Shown: one piece after another, positions 2,977-59,104 of the stretch
Layout of the letters: each line of letters starts with the position of its first letter
Position numbering within the stretch: position 1 is the first letter of the stretch
Source: Porticoccus hydrocarbonoclasticus MCTG13d
GTDB taxonomy: Bacteria; Pseudomonadota; Gammaproteobacteria; Pseudomonadales; Porticoccaceae
Length of the DNA stretch: 64,000 nucleotides
Assembly: GCF_000744735.1 (NCBI RefSeq)
Contig: NZ_JQMM01000001.1
Location: 310,001 to 374,000 of the forward strand
Direction of reading: 5' to 3'
Made by a program: the position numbers and the translations under genes
The notes under the pieces: generated by a model
Told to the model about the DNA's origin: nothing
The model's input: only the letters and a program-made list of their open reading frames with translations
Database searches by the model: none

Positions 2977-4208
2977 AAAAAGCATTACCGGAACATGTAC
3001 CGATGGACCAGTTCAAGGTGATAGACAACTGCCTTCAGGTGGGTCATGTAGCTGTGGACAGACTTGCCGAGCGGGTGGGTCAAACACCCTTTTATGCCTA
3101 TGACCGACAGCTCATGACAGATAGGGTAGCCGCACTGAGAGGCCAGTTCCCTGAAGATATCCATTTACACTACGCCATCAAATCCAACCCGATGCCTGCC
3201 GTTGTTCAACACCTGGCGGGACTGACTGACGGACTTGATGTGGCGTCCCTGAAAGAACTTCGCGTGGCACTGGATACGGGCACCAGCCCACGCAATATCA
3301 GCTTTGCCGGACCGGGCAAAAGCGATGCCGAATTGAAAGCGGCGGCAGCGGCGGGCATTATTATCAATCTTGAATCCGCCGGGGAAATGGAACGGCTGGC
3401 GACCATCTGCAACCAGAGCGGGCACCGGGCCAATGTCGCGGTGAGAGTTAACCCCGACTTTGAACTGAAAACCTCCGGCATGAAGATGGCCGGCGGCCCG
3501 AAACCGTTCGGCATTGATGCTGAAGAAGTTCCCGCTGTGCTGAAGCGGCTTGGGCAACTCGACCTCGCCTTCCAGGGCTTCCACATTTTCAGTGGCTCAC
3601 AGAACCTGCGACCGGACGCCATCATCGAGGCTCAGACAAACACCTTTGCTCTGGCACTGAAACTGGCCGATCACGCCCCGTCGCCTGTCCAGTGGCTGAA
3701 TATCGGCGGCGGCTTTGGCATTCCCTACTTCCCGGGAGAACAACGACTCGACCTCGGCCCTGTGGCGGATAATCTTGCTACCCTTCTGGCCCGCCACAGG
3801 GCCGATCTGCCGGAAGCAGAAATTGTTGTTGAGCTGGGCCGCTACCTGGTGGGTGAAGCCGGCGTCTACGTCTGCGAAGTCATCGACCTGAAAAAATCCA
3901 GGGGTGAAACCTATGCGGTGACCAATGGCGGGCTGCACCATCATCTCGCCGCATCGGGCAACTTCGGTCAGGTGATCAGAAAAAACTACCCGGTCTGCAT
4001 TGGCAACCGGGTAACAGGCGATCCGCTGACAGCGGTAAATGTGGTAGGGCCGCTGTGCACCCCACTGGATATACTCGGGGACAAATACGCACTGCCGCCC
4101 GTTCAGATAGGCGATCTGATTGTGGTTTTTCAATCTGGCGCCTATGGCTATACCGCCAGCCCGCACCACTTTCTAAGCCACCCTGAGCCGGTTGAGGTCC
4201 TGGTCTGA
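2973..4208 (+). CDS. Pyridoxal-dependent decarboxylase, exosortase A system-associated
   Basis: 411 residues of the fold-III PLP decarboxylase family (diaminopimelate/ornithine type). The start is GTG, overlapping the ligase stop as GTGA, with AAGGAG at 2959-2964. PLP-lysine is Lys70 in HYAIKSNP. The phosphate-binding glycine loop GGGFGIPY is at 245-252, His204 (GFHIFSGS) fits the conserved PLP-stacking histidine, and Cys362/Asp366 in GPLCTPLD fit the cross-subunit active-site loop. The family is the exosortase A-associated decarboxylase (dCO2ase_PEP1). It probably converts an amino acid to an amine for attachment to, or loading onto, the product of the adjacent ligase and carrier protein; the actual amino acid is not known. 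Confidence 0.92.
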   Translation: MKKALPEHVPMDQFKVIDNCLQVGHVAVDRLAERVGQTPFYAYDRQLMTDRVAALRGQFPEDIHLHYAIKSNPMPAVVQHLAGLTDGLDVASLKELRVALDTGTSPRNISFAGPGKSDAELKAAAAAGIIINLESAGEMERLATICNQSGHRANVAVRVNPDFELKTSGMKMAGGPKPFGIDAEEVPAVLKRLGQLDLAFQGFHIFSGSQNLRPDAIIEAQTNTFALALKLADHAPSPVQWLNIGGGFGIPYFPGEQRLDLGPVADNLATLLARHRADLPEAEIVVELGRYLVGEAGVYVCEVIDLKKSRGETYAVTNGGLHHHLAASGNFGQVIRKNYPVCIGNRVTGDPLTAVNVVGPLCTPLDILGDKYALPPVQIGDLIVVFQSGAYGYTASPHHFLSHPEPVEVLV

Positions 4209-4353
4209 TCGCCCGACCAACATCGACTACAGCTTCGGGTGATAAAAAATCTGCACAACCTGTCACACCACTACTCAATTCCGTACTGAGCTGGCAGAAT
4301 GCTATCCGGCAGGCTGAACGCCCTGGATTCATGACAAAAATGGAACACCCTCT

Positions 4354-4602
4354 ATGAGTTTGCAAGCGGACATCATTCAAATTATCAATGACGTACTTAT
4401 GCTCGACGGACAAACCACTGAGTTTGACAGTGACACCGGCCTGCTGGGATCCATACCGGAATTTGACTCTATCGCTGTGGTCTCGCTGGTGACTGCGCTG
4501 GAGGAAGAATTCGGCTGTGCTTTCGACGATGACGAACTCAATGCCGATGTGTTCGCCACCATCGGCAGTCTCACAAAAGTCGTCGAGCAAAAGCTGGACT
4601 GA
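4354..4602 (+). CDS. Acyl carrier protein
   Basis: 82 residues, acidic, with the phosphopantetheine attachment Ser39 in the motif EFDSIAV, followed by the typical helix LVTALEEEFG. It should carry an acyl or aminoacyl group as a thioester in the cytoplasm. It lies between the decarboxylase (145-bp gap) and hydrolase 2 (1-bp overlap, TGATG) of the exosortase A small-molecule operon, so the AMP-forming ligase at 1387 is its likely loading enzyme. No phosphopantetheinyl transferase is in the window. The 4209-4353 gap before it has no recognised element. Confidence 0.92.
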   Translation: MSLQADIIQIINDVLMLDGQTTEFDSDTGLLGSIPEFDSIAVVSLVTALEEEFGCAFDDDELNADVFATIGSLTKVVEQKLD

Positions 4603-17046: not shown

Positions 17047-17191
17047 TTATCAATCCTCGGACGTTTGCTCGAAGCCAAGGATTCTGACAGTGTGCGAGGC
17101 CGCTAACAACTGTCGGAATTTTTTACGTTTTTCGCCTAAACCACAGCGGACAGAAGGGTTGTCAGGATGTTTTACATCTTTTCAGAACACC

Positions 17192-17335: not shown

Positions 17336-18775
17336 ATGACTATCACCACTCGCACAGCCATTGGATTCAGTATCACCGGCAGGTATCTGACGCTCTCCTT
17401 TCAGTTTGTCTCAACCATGATCCTGGCCCGGCTGCTGACGCCGGAAGAGATTGGTATTTTCAGTGCAGGCTTTGCCATTGTGGCGCTGGCCCAACTGTTT
17501 CGCGACTTTGGCCTGAATCAGTACATTATTCAGGAAAAAGAATTGAATGAGACGAAAATCAGAACAACCTTCACGCTCAACCTGTTGATGTCCTGGACGC
17601 TGGGGACTTTGCTGTTTTTCGCGGCGGGCCTGATAGCCGATTTTTTTCAGGAAGAAGGTATAGAAACGCTGATCAGAATTCTCTCCTTCAACTTTTTTAT
17701 TATCCCTTTTGGCACTATCACCCTGGCATTGCTGCGCAAGAAAATGCGCTTTCATATCACTGCAGCTATTGGCCTGACCGCAACCCTGTTGGGCATCTGC
17801 GTGTCCCTGGCAACGGCCTACACCGGTTCCGGCTATCTCTGTCTCGCCTATGGCGCGATCACCGAGACCTCCAGCATTGTACTTCTGTCAGTTTTCTTTC
17901 GGCCCAGGGACGTGAGTCTTATCCCCACCCTGGAAGGTGCCAAAAATATATTCAGGTTCGGCTCCATTGTCGGCGCGGGCAACATCATCAACCAGTTTGC
18001 TACCAGTATCACTGATGCCCTGATCGCCCGCATGCTTGGGCTCGCGCAGCTGGGCTACTTTTCCCGGGCCTTTGGTACTTTTTCACTGTTCGATCATATA
18101 TTTGTCAGCAGCATTCGCGGGGTCATACTGCCGCTTTTCTCCCGGGACAACATTCACACAGGCAAGCTGAGGGAGAGTTATCTCAAGGCTGTCACTTACT
18201 CCTATATTTTTGCCTGGCCCTTTTTTACCTTCCTTTTTCTCTACACGGAAGAAACCATAAGGGTGCTGTATGGCACGCAGTGGGATGCCGCCATTCCGCT
18301 GGTAAAAATCCTCTGCCTGGCGGGTGTACTGCTGCCGTCATTTCTGTTTGCCGACAATCTGTTCATTGCCTATGGCAGACCGGGAATTACACTGAAGATC
18401 AAGGTCATTTCAAATATTGCAAAAATCATAATGGTGGGTGGTGCCTGCTTTGTAGGACTGAAAGCGGTCTGCCTGGCACTGGTAGGATTTTTTATTGTCA
18501 GGTTTATGGCCTGCCAGTTTTATGCCAACCAGGTATTTGGCATCGGCATGATAGATGCCGCAAAACCTGCCATGCAGGGTTTGATGCCATTGATTTTCAC
18601 AATATCACCAACACTGGCTGTAAACTCCTTGATGCAGGGGCATATCGAAAGCATTTATGTTCATTTTGCCCTGTTGATGGCAGTGGCATTTGTGGGCTGG
18701 ATCGTTGGTCTCAGGCTTTCCAGGCATGCCTTTTACAATGAAATAACCAGCTTCGCCGGAAAGGGCAGGATATGA
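17336..18775 (+). CDS. Wzx-type polysaccharide flippase (MOP superfamily)
   Basis: 479 residues with 12-14 predicted membrane helices. The N-terminal pattern (SITGRYLTLSFQFVSTMILARLLTPEEIG) and the ARLLTPEEIGIFSAGFAIVALAQLFRDFG style of repeat are characteristic of the polysaccharide biosynthesis/flippase proteins of the MOP superfamily. It should move lipid-linked oligosaccharide across the inner membrane. It is the only flippase seen in the window, so it may serve the XrtA operon as well. It begins a plus-strand operon with a sulfotransferase 33 bp downstream. The start follows the stop-free ATG at 17336; no strong RBS is visible (GACCTG). Confidence 0.9.
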   Translation: MTITTRTAIGFSITGRYLTLSFQFVSTMILARLLTPEEIGIFSAGFAIVALAQLFRDFGLNQYIIQEKELNETKIRTTFTLNLLMSWTLGTLLFFAAGLIADFFQEEGIETLIRILSFNFFIIPFGTITLALLRKKMRFHITAAIGLTATLLGICVSLATAYTGSGYLCLAYGAITETSSIVLLSVFFRPRDVSLIPTLEGAKNIFRFGSIVGAGNIINQFATSITDALIARMLGLAQLGYFSRAFGTFSLFDHIFVSSIRGVILPLFSRDNIHTGKLRESYLKAVTYSYIFAWPFFTFLFLYTEETIRVLYGTQWDAAIPLVKILCLAGVLLPSFLFADNLFIAYGRPGITLKIKVISNIAKIIMVGGACFVGLKAVCLALVGFFIVRFMACQFYANQVFGIGMIDAAKPAMQGLMPLIFTISPTLAVNSLMQGHIESIYVHFALLMAVAFVGWIVGLRLSRHAFYNEITSFAGKGRI

Positions 18776-49771: not shown

Positions 49772-51127
49772 CTAGGAACGAATATTGTACTTTTCGAGAA
49801 AGTTATAGAGCGTTGGTCTGGTCACCCCCAACATTTTGGCTGCTTCCGAGACATTATCCCCGGCATTCAACAACGCCCTCTGAATAGCACCCTTTTCAGC
49901 TTTCTCCCTGATTTCTCTCAGGTTAAAGGGTGCGGCCTCATCGCCCGCTGGCGACAGCTCGAGGTCCTCCAGGGTGATGTGGGTCCCCTCTGCCATGATA
50001 ATGGCCCGTTTGATTCGACTCTCCAGCTCACGGACATTGCCAGGCCAATCGTAAGACTCGATCGCCTGAGCTGCCTGTTTGTCAAACCCGCGTAGCGATT
50101 TGCCTGATTCCTTGCTGAAACGTGCCAAAAATGCCTTTGCCAGCAGCAGGGCATCCCCTTCACGATCCTTCAACAAGGGTATCTGGATGGTGATCTCACT
50201 CACCCTGTAATAAAGATCCTCGCGGAACTTCCCCTCCTCTATGTACTTGGTCAGATCCTGATGCGTGGCACATATAATCCTCACATCAATGGGGATTTCC
50301 GTCCTGCCCCCTACTCGTTCAATGACTCTTTCCTGAAGAAAACGCAATAATTTGGACTGTAACTCCAATGGCAAGTCGCCAATTTCATCGAGAAACAGGG
50401 TACCCCCATCGGCATACTCTATTTTTCCCTGCGTCTGTTTAACCGCACCCGTGAAGGCACCTTTCTCATGGCCGAACAGCTCACTCTCCAACAGATTGTC
50501 TGGTATCGCAGCGCAGTTGATTGCGACCATTTTCTGGTCTGCCCTGGCACTCAGCTCGTGCAATGCCCGGGCAATAACCTCTTTGCCAGTTCCGCTGGCG
50601 CCCAGCAGCAAGGTTGTGATATCGGAGGGCGCTACTTTCTCAACTGTGCGACAGACTTTCAGCATTTCCGGGCTGGCAGTAACAACCCCTCGCAAAGGGG
50701 ACTCCACACCCTGCTCCTGAAGTCGACGGTTTTCAGACTCCAGCTCATAAACACGGTAAGCCCGGTCGACAATCAATGTAAGGATATCCGGGTCAACCGG
50801 CTTTTGATAAAAATCGTAGGCTCCAAGACCAATTGCCTTGACCGCATTGGATCTATCATTGTCACCCGTCACCACGATCACTTTTGTTTGCGGTGAAATC
50901 ACCAGGATCTCACTCAGCGTGGCAAGGCCCTCTGTGACGCCACCGGGATCCGGCGGCAGCCCCAGATCAAGCAATACTACCCATGGCTGATGACGGCGCA
51001 ACTGAGCTATCGCGGCCTCACGATCACCGGTGATGACCACATCATAGTCATCAAAACACCAGCGCAGCTGACTTTGCAGGCCGGTATCGTCTTCAACCAC
51101 GAGCAGCGGTCTGTTGGCTTCTTTCAC
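49772..51127 (-). CDS. prsR: PEP-CTERM-box response regulator transcription factor PrsR (sigma-54 activator)
   Basis: 451 residues, GTG start overlapping prsK as GTGA. Receiver domain residues 8-125 with phospho-acceptor Asp54 in VLLDLGLPP; central sigma-54 AAA+ domain with Walker A GASGTGKE at 176-183 and the sigma-54 contact loop GAFTGA at 223-228; C-terminal Fis-type helix-turn-helix (VSEAAKMLGVTRPTLYNFLEKY). The family is known as a regulator of PEP-CTERM protein genes through RpoN-dependent promoters. The strong -24/-12 site at 56076 is a candidate target. Its gene is convergent with the initiating transferase (37-bp gap). Confidence 0.95.
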   Translation of the reverse strand: MKEANRPLLVVEDDTGLQSQLRWCFDDYDVVITGDREAAIAQLRRHQPWVVLLDLGLPPDPGGVTEGLATLSEILVISPQTKVIVVTGDNDRSNAVKAIGLGAYDFYQKPVDPDILTLIVDRAYRVYELESENRRLQEQGVESPLRGVVTASPEMLKVCRTVEKVAPSDITTLLLGASGTGKEVIARALHELSARADQKMVAINCAAIPDNLLESELFGHEKGAFTGAVKQTQGKIEYADGGTLFLDEIGDLPLELQSKLLRFLQERVIERVGGRTEIPIDVRIICATHQDLTKYIEEGKFREDLYYRVSEITIQIPLLKDREGDALLLAKAFLARFSKESGKSLRGFDKQAAQAIESYDWPGNVRELESRIKRAIIMAEGTHITLEDLELSPAGDEAAPFNLREIREKAEKGAIQRALLNAGDNVSEAAKMLGVTRPTLYNFLEKYNIRS

Positions 51128-53220
51128 GACTGATTTCCTTCATTTTCGGTACTTGCTTCGCCACCATCAATCGGACTACACGGCAAGATAATAGTAAATT
51201 GAGAACCCACGCCAGGCTCACTGGCAACCAGAATATCCCCGCCGATAGAACGGATATACTCTCGACTTTCAAATGCACCCACGCCCATGCCGGTCAAACC
51301 TTTAGTGGAATCAAATGGACTGAAAAGACGGTCGCGGATAAAAGCCCTATCCATTCCCGTACCCGCATCCTCAATAATGACATGAACAGTCTGCCCCTGC
51401 CTCTCTACGCTGACAGCAACTCTTGCTGTTGCCGGGGTGGCGTCCTGGGCATTCTGGATGATATGGCCAAATACAGTCGATAGCTGCTCACGGTCCGCAC
51501 GCACCACCGCATCACCGGCCACCGATTCAAGTACAGGTTTAGGCTCCCTGGCAGAGGCGGCCCTGACCAGCTTCGTCAGCAAACTGCCAAGCTCGATATC
51601 CTCGGCCAAATCGCCCCGAACACCGCTTCTCATCTGCTCCATAAGCCGGGTCATTCTATTAACGGAATTTTTGACAGTTGCAAGAACATCGTCAATGAAC
51701 TCGGGCTTGTGTTTATGCTTTTCTGCATTGGTGATAATCAGCGATTGCTGGGCTAGGATGTTTTTCAGATCATGAACAATATAGGCAGACAGCCGATTAA
51801 ACGCTTCAAACTGTCGCGAACGAATCAGGGCCTGATCTGCCCGATATTGCGCCAAATGGCTGGCCGCGTGCTGGCCTGCCATTTTCAAAAGATCCCGATC
51901 TTCCCAGTTAATCGCGTGATACAAATCCGAGCGCCTGACCAGCACAAACCCCAGGCACTCATCCCGAAGTATCAGGGGCACCAACAGCCAGATATTCCGA
52001 ATCTTCAGCAACCACTCCGGCAGGACCAAACCCGCATATTTTTCGGGATCTTCATTATATTCATCGATATCGATAACCCAGTGAGTCCGCGTCATAAATA
52101 ACGTCAAAGAATCTAACGATTTCGCATCCGCACAATCAGGTTCAGGCATATGCCAGCGAGCCAGCACACTAAAATGTCCAGCATCATTTTTTTCCCACAA
52201 GATGCCACCTGGGCTTTCCGTCAGCTTCGCAATGGATTGAATCACCCTCTCCGGCACACTGTCTTCATTACCTGAAAGCGTCTGGGTAAATTTAAGCCAT
52301 TCTTCCCGATAATCGTGCTTGTAGGAAAAAAAATGCTTGCTCAACAAGACCCTTACCTGAGCACGAATCTTGTCGGAAAACATCAGGGTGACCAGCAGGA
52401 CTGCCGCACCAAAGAAAAATACGATTTGCAGCACACTACCCCAGGTCCCGCCATAATAACGGATGAAGTAACCGGCAGTGGCCATCAGCAGCAGATAAAC
52501 ACCCGCCCCCATGATCGTTGCAGTGTGGAAAACCACATGCCTAGACACGTGGATATTCAGTTCAAATTTCGGGTTTCGGGCAATGGCAATGACGATAAGC
52601 GGTGCGGCCATCCCGTTCACGAGGCCGCGGGCTTCCCATAAATCAAGGCTGATGCGCTTGAAAAGAAGTGCATCTGAGTACATAAAAAAGTCGTAGACAA
52701 AAAAACTGCCGATACCAAGGCACAAGAATTTTGTTGACCATCGCTGGGTGGCACCAGAGTTGCGAAAAATCTGCTCAATCAGAACCAGACCCGTGAGGGA
52801 AAGCACCACCCATAGCACTAACACAATTTCACGAAACAGTGTTTCTGATACGGGCAGATATTTGGAAGCAAGTGGCATAGTAAAGAGCACACCCAACAGC
52901 ACAAGCACTGCCGAACAACCCAGTGCAATTCGAAATATCATGGCTCCGCGGGGACTTTCACCATCTTTTTTACAGAGAACATCCAGCAGGAACAGGCACC
53001 AGGACAGGTTTCTCGACAACTCGGCCAGCTGTATCATCTCGAAAGAAACCCGGGCACCGAACTCCCCTGCTGCAATGGCTCCAGCCCAGACAGTCGAACA
53101 GACGGCGGCGAGAATGATCAGAACCCCCTGCGGCCGTCCACGCCATGAAATGCTGATCAGAATTGTCAGTACCAAATAGGCAAAAAATGCGAACAGATAG
53201 CTGGGCACACCCACATTCAT
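51124..53220 (-). CDS. prsK: PEP-CTERM system histidine kinase PrsK
   Basis: 698 residues from the ATG at 53220 (MNVGVPSYLFAFFAYLV), with AGG 7 bp upstream; the frame stays open to 53274. The N-terminal half has about eight membrane helices, then a GAF-like domain (ESPGGILWEKNDAGHFSVL) and the kinase core: His in AYIVHDLKNILAQQS, N-box IIQNAQDA, and G-boxes DAGTGMD and GLTGMGVGAFES. It should sense an unknown signal at the membrane and phosphorylate PrsR. Both belong to the exosortase-associated two-component pair. Divergent from the wbpP-like gene. Confidence 0.95.
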   Translation of the reverse strand: MNVGVPSYLFAFFAYLVLTILISISWRGRPQGVLIILAAVCSTVWAGAIAAGEFGARVSFEMIQLAELSRNLSWCLFLLDVLCKKDGESPRGAMIFRIALGCSAVLVLLGVLFTMPLASKYLPVSETLFREIVLVLWVVLSLTGLVLIEQIFRNSGATQRWSTKFLCLGIGSFFVYDFFMYSDALLFKRISLDLWEARGLVNGMAAPLIVIAIARNPKFELNIHVSRHVVFHTATIMGAGVYLLLMATAGYFIRYYGGTWGSVLQIVFFFGAAVLLVTLMFSDKIRAQVRVLLSKHFFSYKHDYREEWLKFTQTLSGNEDSVPERVIQSIAKLTESPGGILWEKNDAGHFSVLARWHMPEPDCADAKSLDSLTLFMTRTHWVIDIDEYNEDPEKYAGLVLPEWLLKIRNIWLLVPLILRDECLGFVLVRRSDLYHAINWEDRDLLKMAGQHAASHLAQYRADQALIRSRQFEAFNRLSAYIVHDLKNILAQQSLIITNAEKHKHKPEFIDDVLATVKNSVNRMTRLMEQMRSGVRGDLAEDIELGSLLTKLVRAASAREPKPVLESVAGDAVVRADREQLSTVFGHIIQNAQDATPATARVAVSVERQGQTVHVIIEDAGTGMDRAFIRDRLFSPFDSTKGLTGMGVGAFESREYIRSIGGDILVASEPGVGSQFTIILPCSPIDGGEASTENEGNQS

Positions 53221-53517
53221 GCGAGAACCTGCAGGTCTAGTTTCAAGATCCCGTCGATCATAAAGCGTCTCCATTCAACAACAGATTTTGCACACTAGCG
53301 GATTCTGGATCAGAACTGCCTTTAACACTATACTCAGCACCTTAAATTTAGTCGGACATGCAGCTGAGTTAATCGAAGCGGTGTTTTTGCCCGAAGGCGA
53401 TTCAACCAAAAAACCCAGCTGGCTGCTATCAGTTACTGCCCTTCCATCTACCGCTTTGTGGTGGACGAGACAATCGCAACATATGGATTAGCCACCCACG
53501 AATCAAGGAATATATCG

Positions 53518-55959: not shown

Positions 55960-56001
55960 CTGACCCCTTGCAGCTGTCAGGTTTTTTTACATCAAGGGGT
56001 C
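55960..56001 (+). terminator. Probable terminator with overlapping alternative hairpin
   Basis: CTGAC at 55960-55964 pairs with GTCAG at 55976-55980, followed by G and seven T at 55982-55988: a short intrinsic terminator. GACCCCTTG at 55962-55970 and CAAGGGGTC at 55993-56001 form a perfect 9-bp stem that encloses the T-run. The two stems share bases and exclude each other. It lies 58 bp after the dehydrogenase stop and 75 bp before the sigma-54 promoter. Confidence 0.5.
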
Positions 56002-56075
56002 GCCGACTACCTTGCCAAAAAGAAAACTCGTTTTTATGATCGCAACATATTGATTAATAAAAAACTAAAAAATAA

Positions 56076-56091
56076 TGGCCCACTTATTGCA
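56076..56091 (+). promoter_or_regulatory. Sigma-54 (-24/-12) promoter
   Basis: TGGCCCACTTATTGCA fits the RpoN consensus TGGCAC-N5-TTGCW with the GG (56077-56078) and GC (56089-56090) exactly 10 nt apart. Transcription would start about 56102, giving a ~38-nt leader before the ATG at 56140. PrsR, the expected activator, is encoded about 5 kb to the left. It is the best sigma-54 match I see in the window. Confidence 0.8.
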
Positions 56092-56139
56092 CTGTAATTG
56101 TTATATCAAATAAAACCCCGTAGATACAGGTTTGGAGAA

Positions 56140-56796
56140 ATGGAAAACGACTCACAAAATCATGCAACCAAGAAGGGTGCCGAACCCAATTCTTCAGTAA
56201 ATATCTCACGCCGCAATTTTTCCCGTATCGGCGCTGCGGCACCGATTCTCATGTCCCTCGCAAGCCCCTCTGCGCTGGGGGCCCCCTGCCTGTCCAACAT
56301 GATGTCCGGACATTTGTACCAAGATAGGGGTCAATGCAGCCCCGGCTGGAGCCCCGGCGGCTGGAAAAACGTAGGTGGCAGCGAGCCCGACTGGAACAGC
56401 ACCCCATTTCAATATGGCATTTATGACCCGAAAGCAACCTACACCCAGGGTGGCAGCGGGAAAAAGAAAAAATGTGGCCGCAATAGCAAAAATCAGCCTG
56501 AGTGCTACTTAGAAGGGACAACCCTCTCTGAAGCACTGGGTTATTATGGTTTAGGCTGTCCCTCCGGGCTCGTCAGCGTCTGCCACCTGCCAATGGCCAC
56601 TATTTTGAATGAAAATCCCGGCGGCAGCACAGGCAACTTTGCAGGCCATTTTGTAGCAGCACTCCTGAATGCCTCGCACAGCGGCATAACCTATGTCATC
56701 ACTCCCAGTCAGCTTGTTGGACTTTATAACGATCCATCAACCATACCGGAACCCTATACAGGAAACATAGGATCATTTCTGGATTCAACCTGGTAA
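56140..56796 (+). CDS. Tat-signal exported protein of unknown function
   Basis: 218 residues from the ATG at 56140, which lies behind the sigma-54 promoter and has ACAGG 9 bp upstream; an upstream TTG is outside the predicted transcript. A twin-arginine signal is clear: SRRNFSRIG followed by the hydrophobic AAAPILMSLASPSALGA. The mature part is Gly-, Ser- and Cys-containing (PGWSPGGWKN, CGRNSKNQPECY), with about six cysteines, and carries no known domain. Export folded by Tat suggests early cofactor or disulfide formation or tight folding. It has no PEP-CTERM tail and ends SFLDSTW. Its genes' neighbours (PqqD-, HprK-like, nucleotidyltransferase) make it the prime candidate substrate or partner of the HPr-rel-A cassette. 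Confidence 0.85.
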   Translation: MENDSQNHATKKGAEPNSSVNISRRNFSRIGAAAPILMSLASPSALGAPCLSNMMSGHLYQDRGQCSPGWSPGGWKNVGGSEPDWNSTPFQYGIYDPKATYTQGGSGKKKKCGRNSKNQPECYLEGTTLSEALGYYGLGCPSGLVSVCHLPMATILNENPGGSTGNFAGHFVAALLNASHSGITYVITPSQLVGLYNDPSTIPEPYTGNIGSFLDSTW

Positions 56797-56807
56797 GTTT
56801 TTGCTTT

Positions 56808-56841
56808 AAAGTATCGGCATTATGAATAGTGCCGATACTTT
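56808..56841 (+). repeat. Perfect 12-bp hairpin around the start codon of the PqqD-like gene
   Basis: AAAGTATCGGCA at 56808-56819 is fully complementary to TGCCGATACTTT at 56830-56841, with a 10-nt loop that contains the ATG at 56822-56824. The arm is followed by a pyrimidine-rich CTCTTCC stretch, so it could act as an attenuator or partial terminator, or hide the start codon. It lies 11 bp after the stop of the Tat-signal gene. Confidence 0.7.
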
Positions 56842-57109
56842 CTCTTCCTCCTGCCAGTCCTGCCTCTATCACCAATGGGAGGAGGAATGTGTCATGTACA
56901 ATCCGGTTTCGGGGGAAACCCATTTGCTGGAAGCAACGGCCGCCAAGATTCTGATCACCATTGCTGCAGCACCAACCCGATACGACCAACTCAGTCTCTT
57001 GCTCCAAGAGGAGCTGGATGATGTGCCTGAAACAGAAATAGATGAATACATCTGTACCACCTTGCAGAAACTTCAGGACATGCACTTAATTTCAGCGACA
57101 GGGAAATAG
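56822..57109 (+). CDS. PqqD-family protein, HPr-rel-A system
   Basis: 95 residues. WEEECVMYNPVSGETHLLEATAAKIL matches the PqqD-like (RiPP recognition element) winged-helix fold, and LDDVPETEIDEYICTTLQKLQDMHLI is the second half. Known PqqD-like domains bind leader peptides and present them to modifying enzymes. The start ATG sits in a hairpin loop without an RBS, implying weak or coupled translation. It is followed 5 bp later by the HprK-like kinase. It fits the 'PqqD family peptide chaperone' of the HPr-rel-A set, whose job has not been established. Its N-terminal Ser/Cys-rich extension (SADTFSSSCQSC) is not part of the conserved fold. Confidence 0.85.
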   Translation: MNSADTFSSSCQSCLYHQWEEECVMYNPVSGETHLLEATAAKILITIAAAPTRYDQLSLLLQEELDDVPETEIDEYICTTLQKLQDMHLISATGK

Positions 57110-57114
57110 CTCCC

Positions 57115-58023
57115 TTGCTGCTTTCATCGATACCGCTTCGAAAACTAAAACAGCAGCTAGCAGGGGAAGGCATCAACCTGAAAATTGGCCCCTTTGTGGT
57201 CAACCTCTCGTCATCCCTGCCAAACATTGCAGAAAATCTCAGAGACCTATACGGCGCCTATACTCTGGAGGATATCCACCGGGTCGATTTCCATATCGCA
57301 CTGCAATCCCCGTCGATAATCAGACGGTGGATCCGCCCGCAGGCCACTTTCTCCTTTGACGGCTACCTGCCTTTCAAGCCCCTGCCACAAACCCAGTCTT
57401 TTGCCATGTTCGAATGGGGGCTCAACTGGTGCGTAGCGAACAATGCACACCAATATCTGGTTATCCATTCCGCAGTTGTGGAAAAAAATGGCAAGGCGAT
57501 CATTTTTCCGGGTACGCCTGGTAGCGGTAAAAGCACTCTCTGTGCAGGTCTTGTTAGCCAGGGGTGGCGACTTCTGTCCGATGAAATGGCACTGCTTTCG
57601 ACTGAAACCGGCTTAATCACGCCGATCCCAAGACCAATAAGCCTCAAAAACGAGTCCATTGATATCGTCAGATCATTTGCAAATGATGACATTTTTGTGG
57701 GGAAACCAGTGCATGATACCGCCAAAGGTAGCGTTGCCCACATGTGTGCACCCATGAGCAGCGTCTCAAGGAGCGATGAACCAGCTGTGCCGACTGCCAT
57801 CATTTTCCCCAAATACCGCAAGGAGGTGAATATTGAATTATTGCCTTTGAGCAAGGGCAGGACGTTTCTCGAACTGGCAGAAAACAGCTTCAATTATCAT
57901 ATACTCGGCTCAACCGCCTTTAGTGTTCTGACAGCCATGCTCGACCAGTGCGAATGCTTCAGATTGAACTACCAGAATCTGGATGACGCCTATGCCACTC
58001 TAGGGAACCTGATTGATGCCTGA
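57115..58023 (+). CDS. HprK-related kinase A
   Basis: 302 residues, TTG start (the in-frame start that gives the family N-terminus LLSSIPLRKLKQQLAG). The C-terminal half resembles the HPr kinase/phosphorylase P-loop fold: IHSAVVEKNGKAIIFPGTPGSGKST with Walker A at 133-141, and SDE at 155-157 near the catalytic base position. The N-terminal half has IGPFVVNLSS and VDFHIALQSP without known function. No HPr is encoded nearby, so the phosphoacceptor is unknown. It overlaps the nucleotidyltransferase start by 8 bp and follows the PqqD-like gene by 5 bp. Confidence 0.88.
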   Translation: MLLSSIPLRKLKQQLAGEGINLKIGPFVVNLSSSLPNIAENLRDLYGAYTLEDIHRVDFHIALQSPSIIRRWIRPQATFSFDGYLPFKPLPQTQSFAMFEWGLNWCVANNAHQYLVIHSAVVEKNGKAIIFPGTPGSGKSTLCAGLVSQGWRLLSDEMALLSTETGLITPIPRPISLKNESIDIVRSFANDDIFVGKPVHDTAKGSVAHMCAPMSSVSRSDEPAVPTAIIFPKYRKEVNIELLPLSKGRTFLELAENSFNYHILGSTAFSVLTAMLDQCECFRLNYQNLDDAYATLGNLIDA

Positions 58024-59104
58024 GTCAATCATGGAAAGCTGCCTGGTGCGCTTCCTTCGCGATCCGCAACACAGTGCCCCCGGACTTTCACCTGGGGAAT
58101 GGCAGATGCTTATTCGTCAGGCGAGACGCAGCAATTTATTGAGCCGCATGGCGCACCTCGTCGAAACATTCGATCTTTTCTCTTTTGTGCCTAAGCATCT
58201 TCAATCTCACCTGCTCAGCGCCCAACTGGTGTCATCGAGCAACCTCCGCTCAGTGAAGTGGGAGATCTTGCAAATTTATACTGCACTGAGCGAAGCCGGC
58301 ATTCCCTTTGCGTTGCTCAAAGGTGCTGCCTATGTCATGAGTGAACGCGATGCATTTCAAGGTCGACTGTTTGGCGACATCGATATTCTGGTCAGGAATG
58401 AACAATTAAAAGAGGCTGAAAAAGCGCTTATCAAACACGGGTGGTTTTGCACAAAGATAGACCCCTATGACCAGAAATATTATCGCACCTGGATGCATGA
58501 ACTACCGCCACTGAAACATCTGAAAAGACAAACTGACCTGGATGTTCACCACACCATTCTCCCGCCTACTGCCGACGCAAAACCTGATATCAACAAAATA
58601 TGGGAGCACGTGATTGAGCTGAAAGATTATCCGGGAATGTATGTTCTATCTCTCCAGGATATGATTCTGCACAGTGCCGCCCATCTTTTTCATGAAGGAG
58701 ACTTCGAGCAGGGGCTACGCGACGTTGTCGATCTGGATGCGTTACTCCGCGAGTACTCCCTAGAGAGTGGCGACGCCTGGACCGACCTCCTCACCAGGGC
58801 AAAGACACTCCACCTATCACGATCACTCTATTACGGACTGCGCTATGCCAGGATGCTACTTAAAACGCCTGTTCCCGAGGAGCTGACAGGAGAAATGTCC
58901 GCCGGGGCAGTACCCCCTTGTTTCTCCAGATTTCTCATGGACAGGATGTTACTGAAAGCCATGATGCCAAACTGTATTGGCCAGAGAACTCATTTACTGG
59001 GGCTTACCCGCTTTATTTTATTTATCAGATCACACTATCTTCGCATGCCCATGCAGCTACTGATTCCACACCTGCTCAGAAAAGCGATCAAGCAGGAAAA
59101 ATAA
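58016..59104 (+). CDS. Nucleotidyltransferase family protein (NTP_transf_5-like)
   Basis: 362 residues from the ATG at 58016 (AGGGAA 9 bp upstream). ALLKGAAYVMSERDAFQGRLFGDIDILV at about 99-126 has the Asp-x-Asp active site of the DNA polymerase beta-like fold (GDIDILV); TDLDVHHTIL supplies the third acidic residue. HSAAHLFHEGDF and LRDVVDLDALL are family regions. Such proteins are found with PqqD/HprK-like sets in exosortase loci and may AMPylate or UMPylate a partner, which is unproven. It ends the cassette, and a terminator hairpin follows at 59144. Confidence 0.85.
   Translation: MPESIMESCLVRFLRDPQHSAPGLSPGEWQMLIRQARRSNLLSRMAHLVETFDLFSFVPKHLQSHLLSAQLVSSSNLRSVKWEILQIYTALSEAGIPFALLKGAAYVMSERDAFQGRLFGDIDILVRNEQLKEAEKALIKHGWFCTKIDPYDQKYYRTWMHELPPLKHLKRQTDLDVHHTILPPTADAKPDINKIWEHVIELKDYPGMYVLSLQDMILHSAAHLFHEGDFEQGLRDVVDLDALLREYSLESGDAWTDLLTRAKTLHLSRSLYYGLRYARMLLKTPVPEELTGEMSAGAVPPCFSRFLMDRMLLKAMMPNCIGQRTHLLGLTRFILFIRSHYLRMPMQLLIPHLLRKAIKQEK

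Follow-up and report, generated by a model that had tools for sequence, protein, structure and literature searches.

A PrsR-linked four-gene cassette that encodes a Tat-signal protein and its proposed modification enzymes

Why should a gene for a Tat-signal protein be followed by genes for a PqqD protein, an HprK-related kinase and a nucleotidyltransferase, and is that protein the substrate of the enzymes encoded beside it? This question was raised by a first-pass annotation of a stretch of 64,000 nucleotides from Porticoccus hydrocarbonoclasticus MCTG13d (hereafter, the window). It described a near-consensus -24/-12 promoter in front of a Tat-exported, Cys/Gly-rich protein and the three genes that follow it, without an HPr or radical-SAM partner, and proposed an undescribed protein-modification system linked to the exosortase regulator PrsR. 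We therefore analysed window positions 55975-59104 together with related loci. What was observed there is real, and the features considered in this work are as follows, all positions being those of the window.

55975-55991 (+): PrsR-type activator box (published as motif 1), TGTCAGGTTTTTTTACA
56076-56091 (+): -24/-12 sigma-54 promoter, TGGCCC-N5-TTGCA, 84 nt after the box
56140-56796 (+): Tat-signal protein of 218 aa, the proposed substrate (the longest ORF begins at the TTG at 56098)
56293-56307 (+): codons of S52 (56293-56295) to S56 (56305-56307), conserved serines and proposed acceptor site
56822-57109 (+): PqqD-family protein, putative peptide chaperone (RRE-like), TIGR04353
57115-58023 (+): HprK-related kinase A, TIGR04352
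58013-59104 (+): PF14907 nucleotidyltransferase (ATG at 58016; residues numbered from the TTG at 58013)
49772-51127 (-): PrsR, sigma-54 activator of PEP-CTERM genes (TIGR02915), proposed regulator of the cassette
51124-53274 (-): PrsK histidine kinase (TIGR02916), partner of PrsR

The identities of the enzymes were established by profile searches against Pfam and NCBIfam. The PqqD protein scored 47.5 bits with TIGR04353 (cut-off 35) and 25.5 bits with PF05402 (cut-off 23.4), the kinase scored 383 bits with TIGR04352 (cut-off 200) and the nucleotidyltransferase scored 183 bits with PF14907 (cut-off 31.2), while PrsR and PrsK scored 722 and 781 bits. The kinase and the PqqD protein are thus, by score, members of what NCBIfam names the HPr-rel-A system, and public records name relatives in the same way. 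None of the four proteins matched an HPr or radical-SAM family, and the reading of the kinase as a canonical HPr kinase was rejected because the hpr-ser model gave only 25 bits against a cut-off of 240. The first gene product, for which the ATG at 56140 is the likelier start since a purine-rich stretch precedes it, contains 6 Cys and 28 Gly in 218 aa and matched no Pfam or NCBIfam family. In the two annotated records that were seen, from Vibrio alfacsensis and Sphingomonas parapaucimobilis, this gene is labelled only as a hypothetical protein. The claim that the system is undescribed is therefore only half right, as the kinase and PqqD protein already carry a system name. Literature searches on the HprK-related kinase or HPr-rel-A and on PF14907 found no paper, PqqD in combination with HPr kinase returned papers on lasso peptides, and a combination of exosortase, HprK, PqqD, nucleotidyltransferase and twin-arginine topics returned an unrelated study on Listeria SecA2. 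Of the papers that were listed for RRE with Tat, none held the term RiPP recognition element. The Tat partner, the regulon and the acceptor motif were found in no paper listed by these searches, which do not cover most subscription journals, nor in those listed by a search on PrsR, PEP-CTERM, HprK and floc.

We next asked whether the four genes form a stable unit. The first-pass annotation had stated that its proposal would fail if Tat-protein homologues never occurred with PqqD/HprK genes, and the outcome was the opposite. The set is a stable unit. From the kinase side, a Tat-signal protein lies upstream in 40 of 41 cassettes (the window plus 40 genomes), the one miss (locus L075) being cut by a contig end, and from the Tat side 12 of 12 further loci have the kinase; together this amounts to 52 of 53 cassettes, 9 of which are alike only in the signal. 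Among named loci, of which the best 80 of 566 were examined, the Tat protein is present at 78, PqqD at 79 and the nucleotidyltransferase at 78, although in one of the 78 (L165) the Tat gene lies 3' on the other strand. In contrast, the Nitrosospira locus L160 has the kinase and transferase with no Tat or PqqD gene found upstream. A genome-wide search with the Tat profile hit 47 of 369 genomes, of which 37 are kinase genomes, and the other 10 hold only the mature domain in other proteins (4) or short Tat peptides (6).

The control region was then compared across relatives. The counts used ORF upstream regions with enough sequence and distinct C-termini (118 Tat genes), with ORFs of 150 aa or more as controls. 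The promoter is more than chance, and both it and the PrsR motif are strongly enriched across relatives. Sigma-54-type sites scoring >=12 occur in 48 of 118 regions against 76 of 1368 controls, and those scoring >=13 in 16 of 118 against 3 of 1368. A motif found de novo in the regions upstream of the Tat genes fits the published 17-nt PrsR motif ending TTTACA (PMC1569441), and exact copies precede 65 of 118 Tat genes against 17 of 1361 controls. This box, which the first-pass annotation had missed, is followed within 32-92 nt by a sigma-54 site in 73 of 118 regions against 15 of 1361 controls, some of the 15 control hits overlapping the Tat gene, and the window element with its spacer of 84 nt conforms to the same arrangement. 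The genome itself has 8 exact boxes, 3 of them before PEP-CTERM ORFs (one below cut-off) and 1 before the cassette. In the set of 369 genomes, PrsR occurs in 40 of the 41 with the kinase against 66 of 328 others (Fisher p 1.3e-23, with no correction for kinship). The suggested link to PrsR is hence backed by both the box and the phylogenetic profile. However, exosortase/EPS marker genes lie within the examined stretch in only 25 of 120 loci by manual count; loci with PrsR alone (24 of the 49 with any marker) were excluded from this count as these PrsR neighbours may include other NtrC-like proteins. The Tat protein does not look like an exosortase substrate, as none of the 8 hits to the C-terminal TIGR02595 tail in the genome (E up to 1) lies at the locus, and a PEP-CTERM identity was therefore rejected.

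Is the first protein a Tat substrate, and does it carry a candidate acceptor site? Export by Tat is inferred from sequence alone. R24 and R25 are present in 77 and 78 of 79 aligned Tat proteins and the genome encodes TatC (245 bits), although no library Tat-signal model matched the window protein. Just after the signal, S52 and S56 are Ser in 79 of 79 aligned proteins, and in a second set of 38 rows S52 is Ser in 37 (one Thr, in L072) and S56 in 38, while mean column identity is 16%. S52 is also Thr in Vibrio alfacsensis when aligned by eye, and a third serine of the motif is Tyr60 in the window. A working alignment of 70 rows was obtained from 77 rows by leaving out seven (L120, L131, L137, L144, L171, L177 and L181), L159 and L165 having been left out earlier; in it R24, R25, C50, S52 and S56 are invariant, whereas with all 79 rows C50 falls to 76. 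A strict motif, C-x(1,2)-S-x3-S, misses 29 of 111 long Tat proteins, mostly because the Cys-Ser spacing varies, and the alignment counts were used instead. Free-standing copies of the mature domain lack the serine motif in the 5 of 6 that could be read. Nevertheless, the serines could be structural. Moreover, nine divergent Tat proteins share only the signal region and carry a C-terminal [ST]xxGxCx[TA]S-like motif that could be the acceptor instead, and the box-plus-promoter element was found in only 3 of these 9. A comparison of a leader motif (P-x2-3-[TS]-[LVI]) gave 61 of 119 long, 8 of 8 divergent (1 of 9 not scored) and 13 of 13 short proteins, but the control held only 4 proteins and nothing is concluded from it. 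The structural model of the Tat protein has low confidence at the N-terminus, its predicted fold matched nothing in the PDB below E 1, and a sequence-profile search gave nothing credible.

C50 and C66 are Cys in 76 of 79 rows, and Tat often carries cofactor-bearing folded proteins. A metal or redox protein, in which the conserved Cys/Ser residues bind a cofactor loaded by the enzymes, was thus considered, but this appears very unlikely. No metal-binding or redox domain was found in the families searched, the nine divergent Tat proteins lack the mature domain, and kinases and nucleotidyltransferases of these kinds are not known as metal-loading enzymes.

The kinase and transferase motifs appear intact. 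In the kinase, H118, K139, D156 and E157 are invariant in the 32 sequences aligned of 53; lasso-type peptide serine kinases have a conserved His-Lys-Asp-Asp, rather than which the motif here would read His-Lys-Asp-Glu, where the equivalence of the residues is read from the alignment with HprK. In the nucleotidyltransferase, the catalytic Asp triad D122, D124 and D177 is present in 64 of 64 aligned sequences, these being the window and the 63 of 80 loci that passed a length and position filter (a further working alignment held 50 of the 64). Its predicted structure resembles small-molecule nucleotidyltransferases such as ANT(2'')-Ia (Foldseek, TM 0.67 by target) and LnuA, with no E-value below 0.001, and a search of its profile against PDB sequences returned nothing.

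This resemblance also suits a rival view in which the enzymes act on something else (PEP-CTERM proteins, a sugar nucleotide or another peptide) and the Tat protein is a co-regulated exported partner, such as an exopolysaccharide-binding or structural protein. In line with this view, the mature domain occurs on its own in other, mostly large, proteins in which no Tat signal was seen and which have no such cassette beside them, and the genome has PEP-CTERM genes under the same box. We regard this alternative as possible but unlikely, since the Tat gene lies next to the enzymes almost without exception, the serines behind the signal are conserved and the kinase follows the type of Tat protein. 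In a tree of 48 kinases, which leaves out four near-copies and L075, the 9 cassettes whose Tat protein has another mature part form one branch (support 99/98; 0 of 500 shuffles as low). Furthermore, HprK-like kinases lie in the same stretch as unrelated short Tat-signal peptides in 5 of 9 loci, and those peptides have an invariant Gly-Ser behind the signal (13 of 13).

The closest working precedent is found in lasso peptide tailoring by the PadeK, ThcoK and PsmK kinases and the PsmN nucleotidyltransferase, where a kinase, and in one case a nucleotidyltransferase, acts on a precursor serine; in pseudomycoidin PsmK phosphorylates and PsmN is needed for the hexose (PMC9266682). The B1 protein of such clusters is PqqD-like. 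A Deinococcus plasmid locus holds PqqD, HprK-like kinase and PF14907 fused to lasso B2. The cassette was, however, rejected as a lasso peptide cluster because neither an asparagine-synthetase-like cyclase nor a B2 transglutaminase-like protease is found among the four proteins. The proposed substrate is a 218-aa Tat-signal protein rather than a short precursor with leader and threaded core, and its conserved serines are at the N-terminus of the mature part. Another possibility is that the kinase is a regulatory sensor that reversibly phosphorylates the Tat precursor or PqqD to time export, with the serines as a switch rather than a permanent mark. PDB HprK chains match the kinase profile at E 1.4e-4, and canonical HprK is both kinase and phosphorylase. 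This explanation is improbable, as the conserved nucleotidyltransferase has no place in a simple switch and in the closest analogues, PadeK and PsmK, the phosphate is found in the product (PMC9266682).

The explanation that we favour, with moderate confidence, is a PrsR/sigma-54-controlled unit of a substrate and its enzymes, conserved across many environmental bacteria, which would be switched on together with the exopolysaccharide-linked protein-sorting system. In this view, PqqD would act as an RRE and signal-peptide-holding chaperone that keeps the Tat precursor in the cytoplasm and presents it, a role comparable to that of redox enzyme maturation chaperones such as NapD, small proteins that bind a Tat precursor until maturation is complete (PMC3316669, PMC4159696), although the family is different and no cofactor enzyme was found here. 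The kinase would phosphorylate a serine of the S-x3-S-G-N motif just behind the signal (S56 as first choice, S52 as second), the nucleotidyltransferase would add a nucleotidyl group or a hexose to that phosphate, and Tat would export the folded, marked protein into the exopolysaccharide/PEP-CTERM environment. The gene set and its linkage, the promoter and box, the co-occurrence with PrsR, the conserved residues, the apparently intact kinase motif and the intact transferase motif rest directly on the data, whereas which protein binds which, the acceptor residue, the chemistry, the order of the steps, export itself and the purpose are inferred. The interpretation in the first-pass annotation, that the Tat precursor or another peptide is bound by PqqD and phosphorylated or nucleotidylated before export, is partly supported; phosphorylation is favoured over bare nucleotidylation by the conserved serines and the lasso precedent.

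A broader and more speculative reading, which we consider doubtful, is a general class of Tat-exported ribosomal products, comprising proteins and short peptides whose Tat signal doubles as leader for a PqqD/RRE and which receive in the cytoplasm a phospho-serine extended by a hexose or nucleotide. PqqD would then be a Tat proofreading chaperone, and in exosortase bacteria the mark would tie the exported protein to the exopolysaccharide. The short peptides with the invariant Gly-Ser would be further versions of such products.

The proposed substrate and the regulon are what is new here. If the favoured explanation is correct, it would give a substrate, an acceptor site and a regulon to a system that NCBI names but for which the literature searches found no description, with sharp predictions (two serines, one regulator and four genes) that apply also to hosts with isolate genomes among the loci, such as Massilia, Dechloromonas or Thiobacillus. 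It would extend the serine phosphorylation of PqqD-handled precursors, known in lasso peptides, to exported proteins carried by Tat, and tie it to the exosortase/exopolysaccharide programme.

The four genes lie in a 2.47-Mb single-contig genome, and the kinase that they include is 93% identical to one from a genome labelled uncultured Porticoccus. They share one strand and follow a sigma-54-type site, in the following order:

56076-56091, forward strand, sigma-54-type site
56140-56796, forward strand, Tat-signal protein
56822-57109, forward strand, PqqD
57115-58023, forward strand, HprK-related kinase A
58013-59104, forward strand, PF14907 nucleotidyltransferase

The gaps are 25 and 5 nt and the last two genes overlap, as in an operon. 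The three enzymes scored above the curated cut-offs. In contrast, the Tat protein matched nothing in Pfam or NCBIfam, and when 70 of its relatives were scanned singly, no family from either collection matched more than 2 of them, none credibly.

To determine whether the genes form a stable set, the kinase model TIGR04352 was searched against 369 genomes of the class and was over its cut-off in 41. Stretches were extracted around the 40 kinases outside the window's genome and around 12 further loci that were found from the Tat side among 58 relatives (13 hits including the genome's own). Using an iterated profile, a Tat-signal protein was found upstream of the kinase in 52 of 53 cassettes and PqqD was found in 52 of 53. 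The Tat miss, locus L075, is cut by a contig end, while the PqqD miss is locus L084. Nine of the 52 (loci L055, L057, L068, L070, L076, L079, L081, L082 and L083, hereafter the divergent cassettes) appear to have been recruited through the signal region alone and have other mature parts. A second set comprised the best 80 loci out of at least 566 relatives (Thiobacillus, Methylobacter, Massilia, Dechloromonas and others), of which 78 have the Tat protein, 79 PqqD and 78 the transferase. In one of these 78 (L165) the Tat gene lies 3' of the cassette on the other strand. The two misses for Tat are L124, at a contig end, and L160 from Nitrosospira, where none was found. The two sets overlap in organisms.

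The reverse search, in which the Tat profile was compared to the same 369 genomes, gave hits in 47. By hand count, 37 of these are among the 41 kinase genomes, although in one of them (G286) the only hit is a short Tat peptide and not its cassette. Of the 4 kinase genomes without a hit, 3 have the divergent type and 1 is the contig-end case. The other 10 genomes hold only part of the protein; 4 have the mature domain at the end of other proteins and 6 have short Tat-signal peptides. One kinase genome has a second full-length copy away from its cassette (L224).

The upstream regions of 118 distinct Tat genes were then compared with 1368 control ORF upstream regions from the same stretches. Sigma-54 sites scoring >=12 precede 48 of the 118 Tat genes against 76 controls, and sites scoring >=13 precede 16 against 3 (Mann-Whitney p 5e-26). 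Unsupervised word counts upstream of sites scoring >=11.7 yielded TGTC-N9-TACA in 58 of 74 regions and about none in shuffles. This fits the 17-nt motif 1 ending in TTTACA that Haft and colleagues described before PEP-CTERM genes, with a spacer of 62.8 nt on average (32-92) to a sigma-54 site (PMC1569441). Exact boxes precede 65 of 118 Tat genes against 17 of 1361 controls, and box (one mismatch allowed), spacer and site together were found in 73 against 15. Among the 9 divergent cassettes the joint element was found in 3. In the window the box is at 55975-55991 and the spacer is 84 nt. The genome has 8 exact boxes, compared to 4 for the reversed-pattern control; by coordinates, three precede ORFs with a PEP-CTERM match (one of these below the TIGR02595 cut-off), one is that of the cassette, and one lies at window 17160-17176, upstream of a gene at 17336-18775 that was judged by eye to be flippase-like. 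PrsR (TIGR02915 over cut-off) is present in 106 of the same 369 genomes and in 40 of the 41 kinase genomes, the exception being a 75%-complete genome (Fisher p 1.3e-23, without correction for relatedness).

Sequence conservation provided a clue to the possible substrate. In 79 aligned Tat proteins (the window's and those of the 78 loci of the second set), S52 and S56 are Ser in all 79, N177 is conserved in 78, and C50 and C66 are Cys in 76. In the 38 non-divergent rows of the first set, S56 is Ser in 38 and S52 in 37, with Thr in L072. Overall the family is loose, with a mean column identity of 16% in a 70-row alignment from which some rows were left out and in which only R24, R25, C50, S52 and S56 are invariant. 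The serines lie just past the likely signal cleavage site. The mature domain (GCTPGYW...AALLNA) also closes other, mostly large, proteins (L225 3726-5153, where it occurs with DUF7507, and L226-L230), and there the serine motif is absent in the 5 of 6 that could be read; no Pfam model matched the domain in L225. The divergent Tat proteins have, by eye and with guessed cleavage sites, a Ser within a few residues of the signal in 9 of 9, but they also have a C-terminal Cys/Ser motif resembling [ST]xxGxCx[TA]S, which is imperfect in some, and the mature part of L068 is only about 12 residues.

The short Tat-signal peptides (57-87 aa) were found at loci L215-L223 (for example L220 7653-8885, reverse strand, and L216 6976-7203, forward strand), with up to three per genome. 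The 13 that were aligned share an invariant leader (RR, F, Y, A, P, T-L, A) and an invariant Gly-Ser shortly after it. HprK-like kinases lie in the same stretch in 5 of 9 fetched short-peptide loci and a PqqD protein in 3 of 9, while no NCBIfam model matched the three peptides that were scanned. In 35 genomes, most of them chosen for HprK-like genes, 12 have such a peptide; 7 of the 12 are those from which the alignment came, and three of the other matches are weak (E 9e-5 to 9e-4).

A maximum-likelihood tree was built from 48 kinases, five of the 53 having been left out. The 9 kinases from the divergent cassettes fall on one branch (support 99/98), which was recovered in 98% of bootstrap trees, and 0 of 500 label shuffles are as low. 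These kinases come from seven families, and one family (f137) has a member of each type on different sides of the tree, which argues against mere species kinship.

H118, K139 (P-loop), D156 and E157 are invariant in 32 kinases, and a profile search ties this region to HprK structures (E 1.4e-4). In the transferase, D122, D124 and D177 are invariant (64 of 64) and the predicted structure is confident (pLDDT 91). Its best PDB neighbours are nucleotidyltransferases, among them ANT(2'')-Ia (TM 0.67 by target) and LnuA (0.61), though no E-value is below 0.001. The genome also carries a second pair of PqqD-like and HprK-like genes (L239 7357-8837, at about 1560356-1561836 of its contig C1, reverse strand). 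The kinase of this pair scores 34.5 bits to TIGR04352 and the PqqD-like protein, judged by eye, matched no NCBIfam model; the pair lies next to what look like, by eye, two glycosyltransferase genes and a transporter gene, and no precursor was recognised.

A precedent for the proposed chemistry has been reported in lasso peptides. According to a review, PadeK phosphorylates the C-terminal serine of a lasso precursor, and in pseudomycoidin PsmK phosphorylates and PsmN, annotated as a nucleotidyltransferase, is needed for one or two hexoses on the phospho-serine, without it having been established that PsmN adds them itself (PMC9266682). On a Deinococcus psychrotolerans plasmid we found a PqqD family protein, an HprK-like kinase (28 bits to HprK_rel_B, far below its cut-off), a short ORF that looks like a lasso precursor, and a PF14907 nucleotidyltransferase (115 bits) fused to a lasso B2 protease domain (L242 5833-7173), which is annotated only as lasso B2 protein. 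Hence, the same three kinds of enzyme seem to serve a lasso peptide there and a Tat protein here. An Ensifer plasmid has an HprK-like gene and a nucleotidyltransferase beside a 99-aa Tat-signal peptide, and a Methylobacterium tardum plasmid has a PqqD-HprK fusion gene with an unannotated Tat-signal ORF directly upstream (L243, about 4100-4400); both peptides were recognised by eye.

Taken as the most likely mode of action, the precursor would be made on PrsR/sigma-54 command and held by PqqD, the kinase would mark a serine next to the cleavage site, the transferase would extend the phosphate, and Tat would export the folded product. The use of Tat fits a modification made in the cytoplasm. The gene set, its linkage, the promoter and box, the profile with PrsR, the conserved residues and the intact kinase and transferase motifs are shown by the analysis, whereas who binds whom, the acceptor residue, the chemistry, the order of the steps and the purpose are inferred from sequence and by analogy. 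We are fairly confident that the Tat protein is the substrate, but phosphorylation of serine followed by extension is proposed only tentatively, and the statement as a whole is held to be somewhat more likely than not. That the mark could prime or anchor exopolysaccharide is speculation. The kinase and PqqD belong to the HPr-rel-A system of NCBI, and the cassette, in this view, works like lasso serine tailoring but is not a lasso cluster; the enzymes are known, while the proposed substrate class and the proposed regulon are rated as new.
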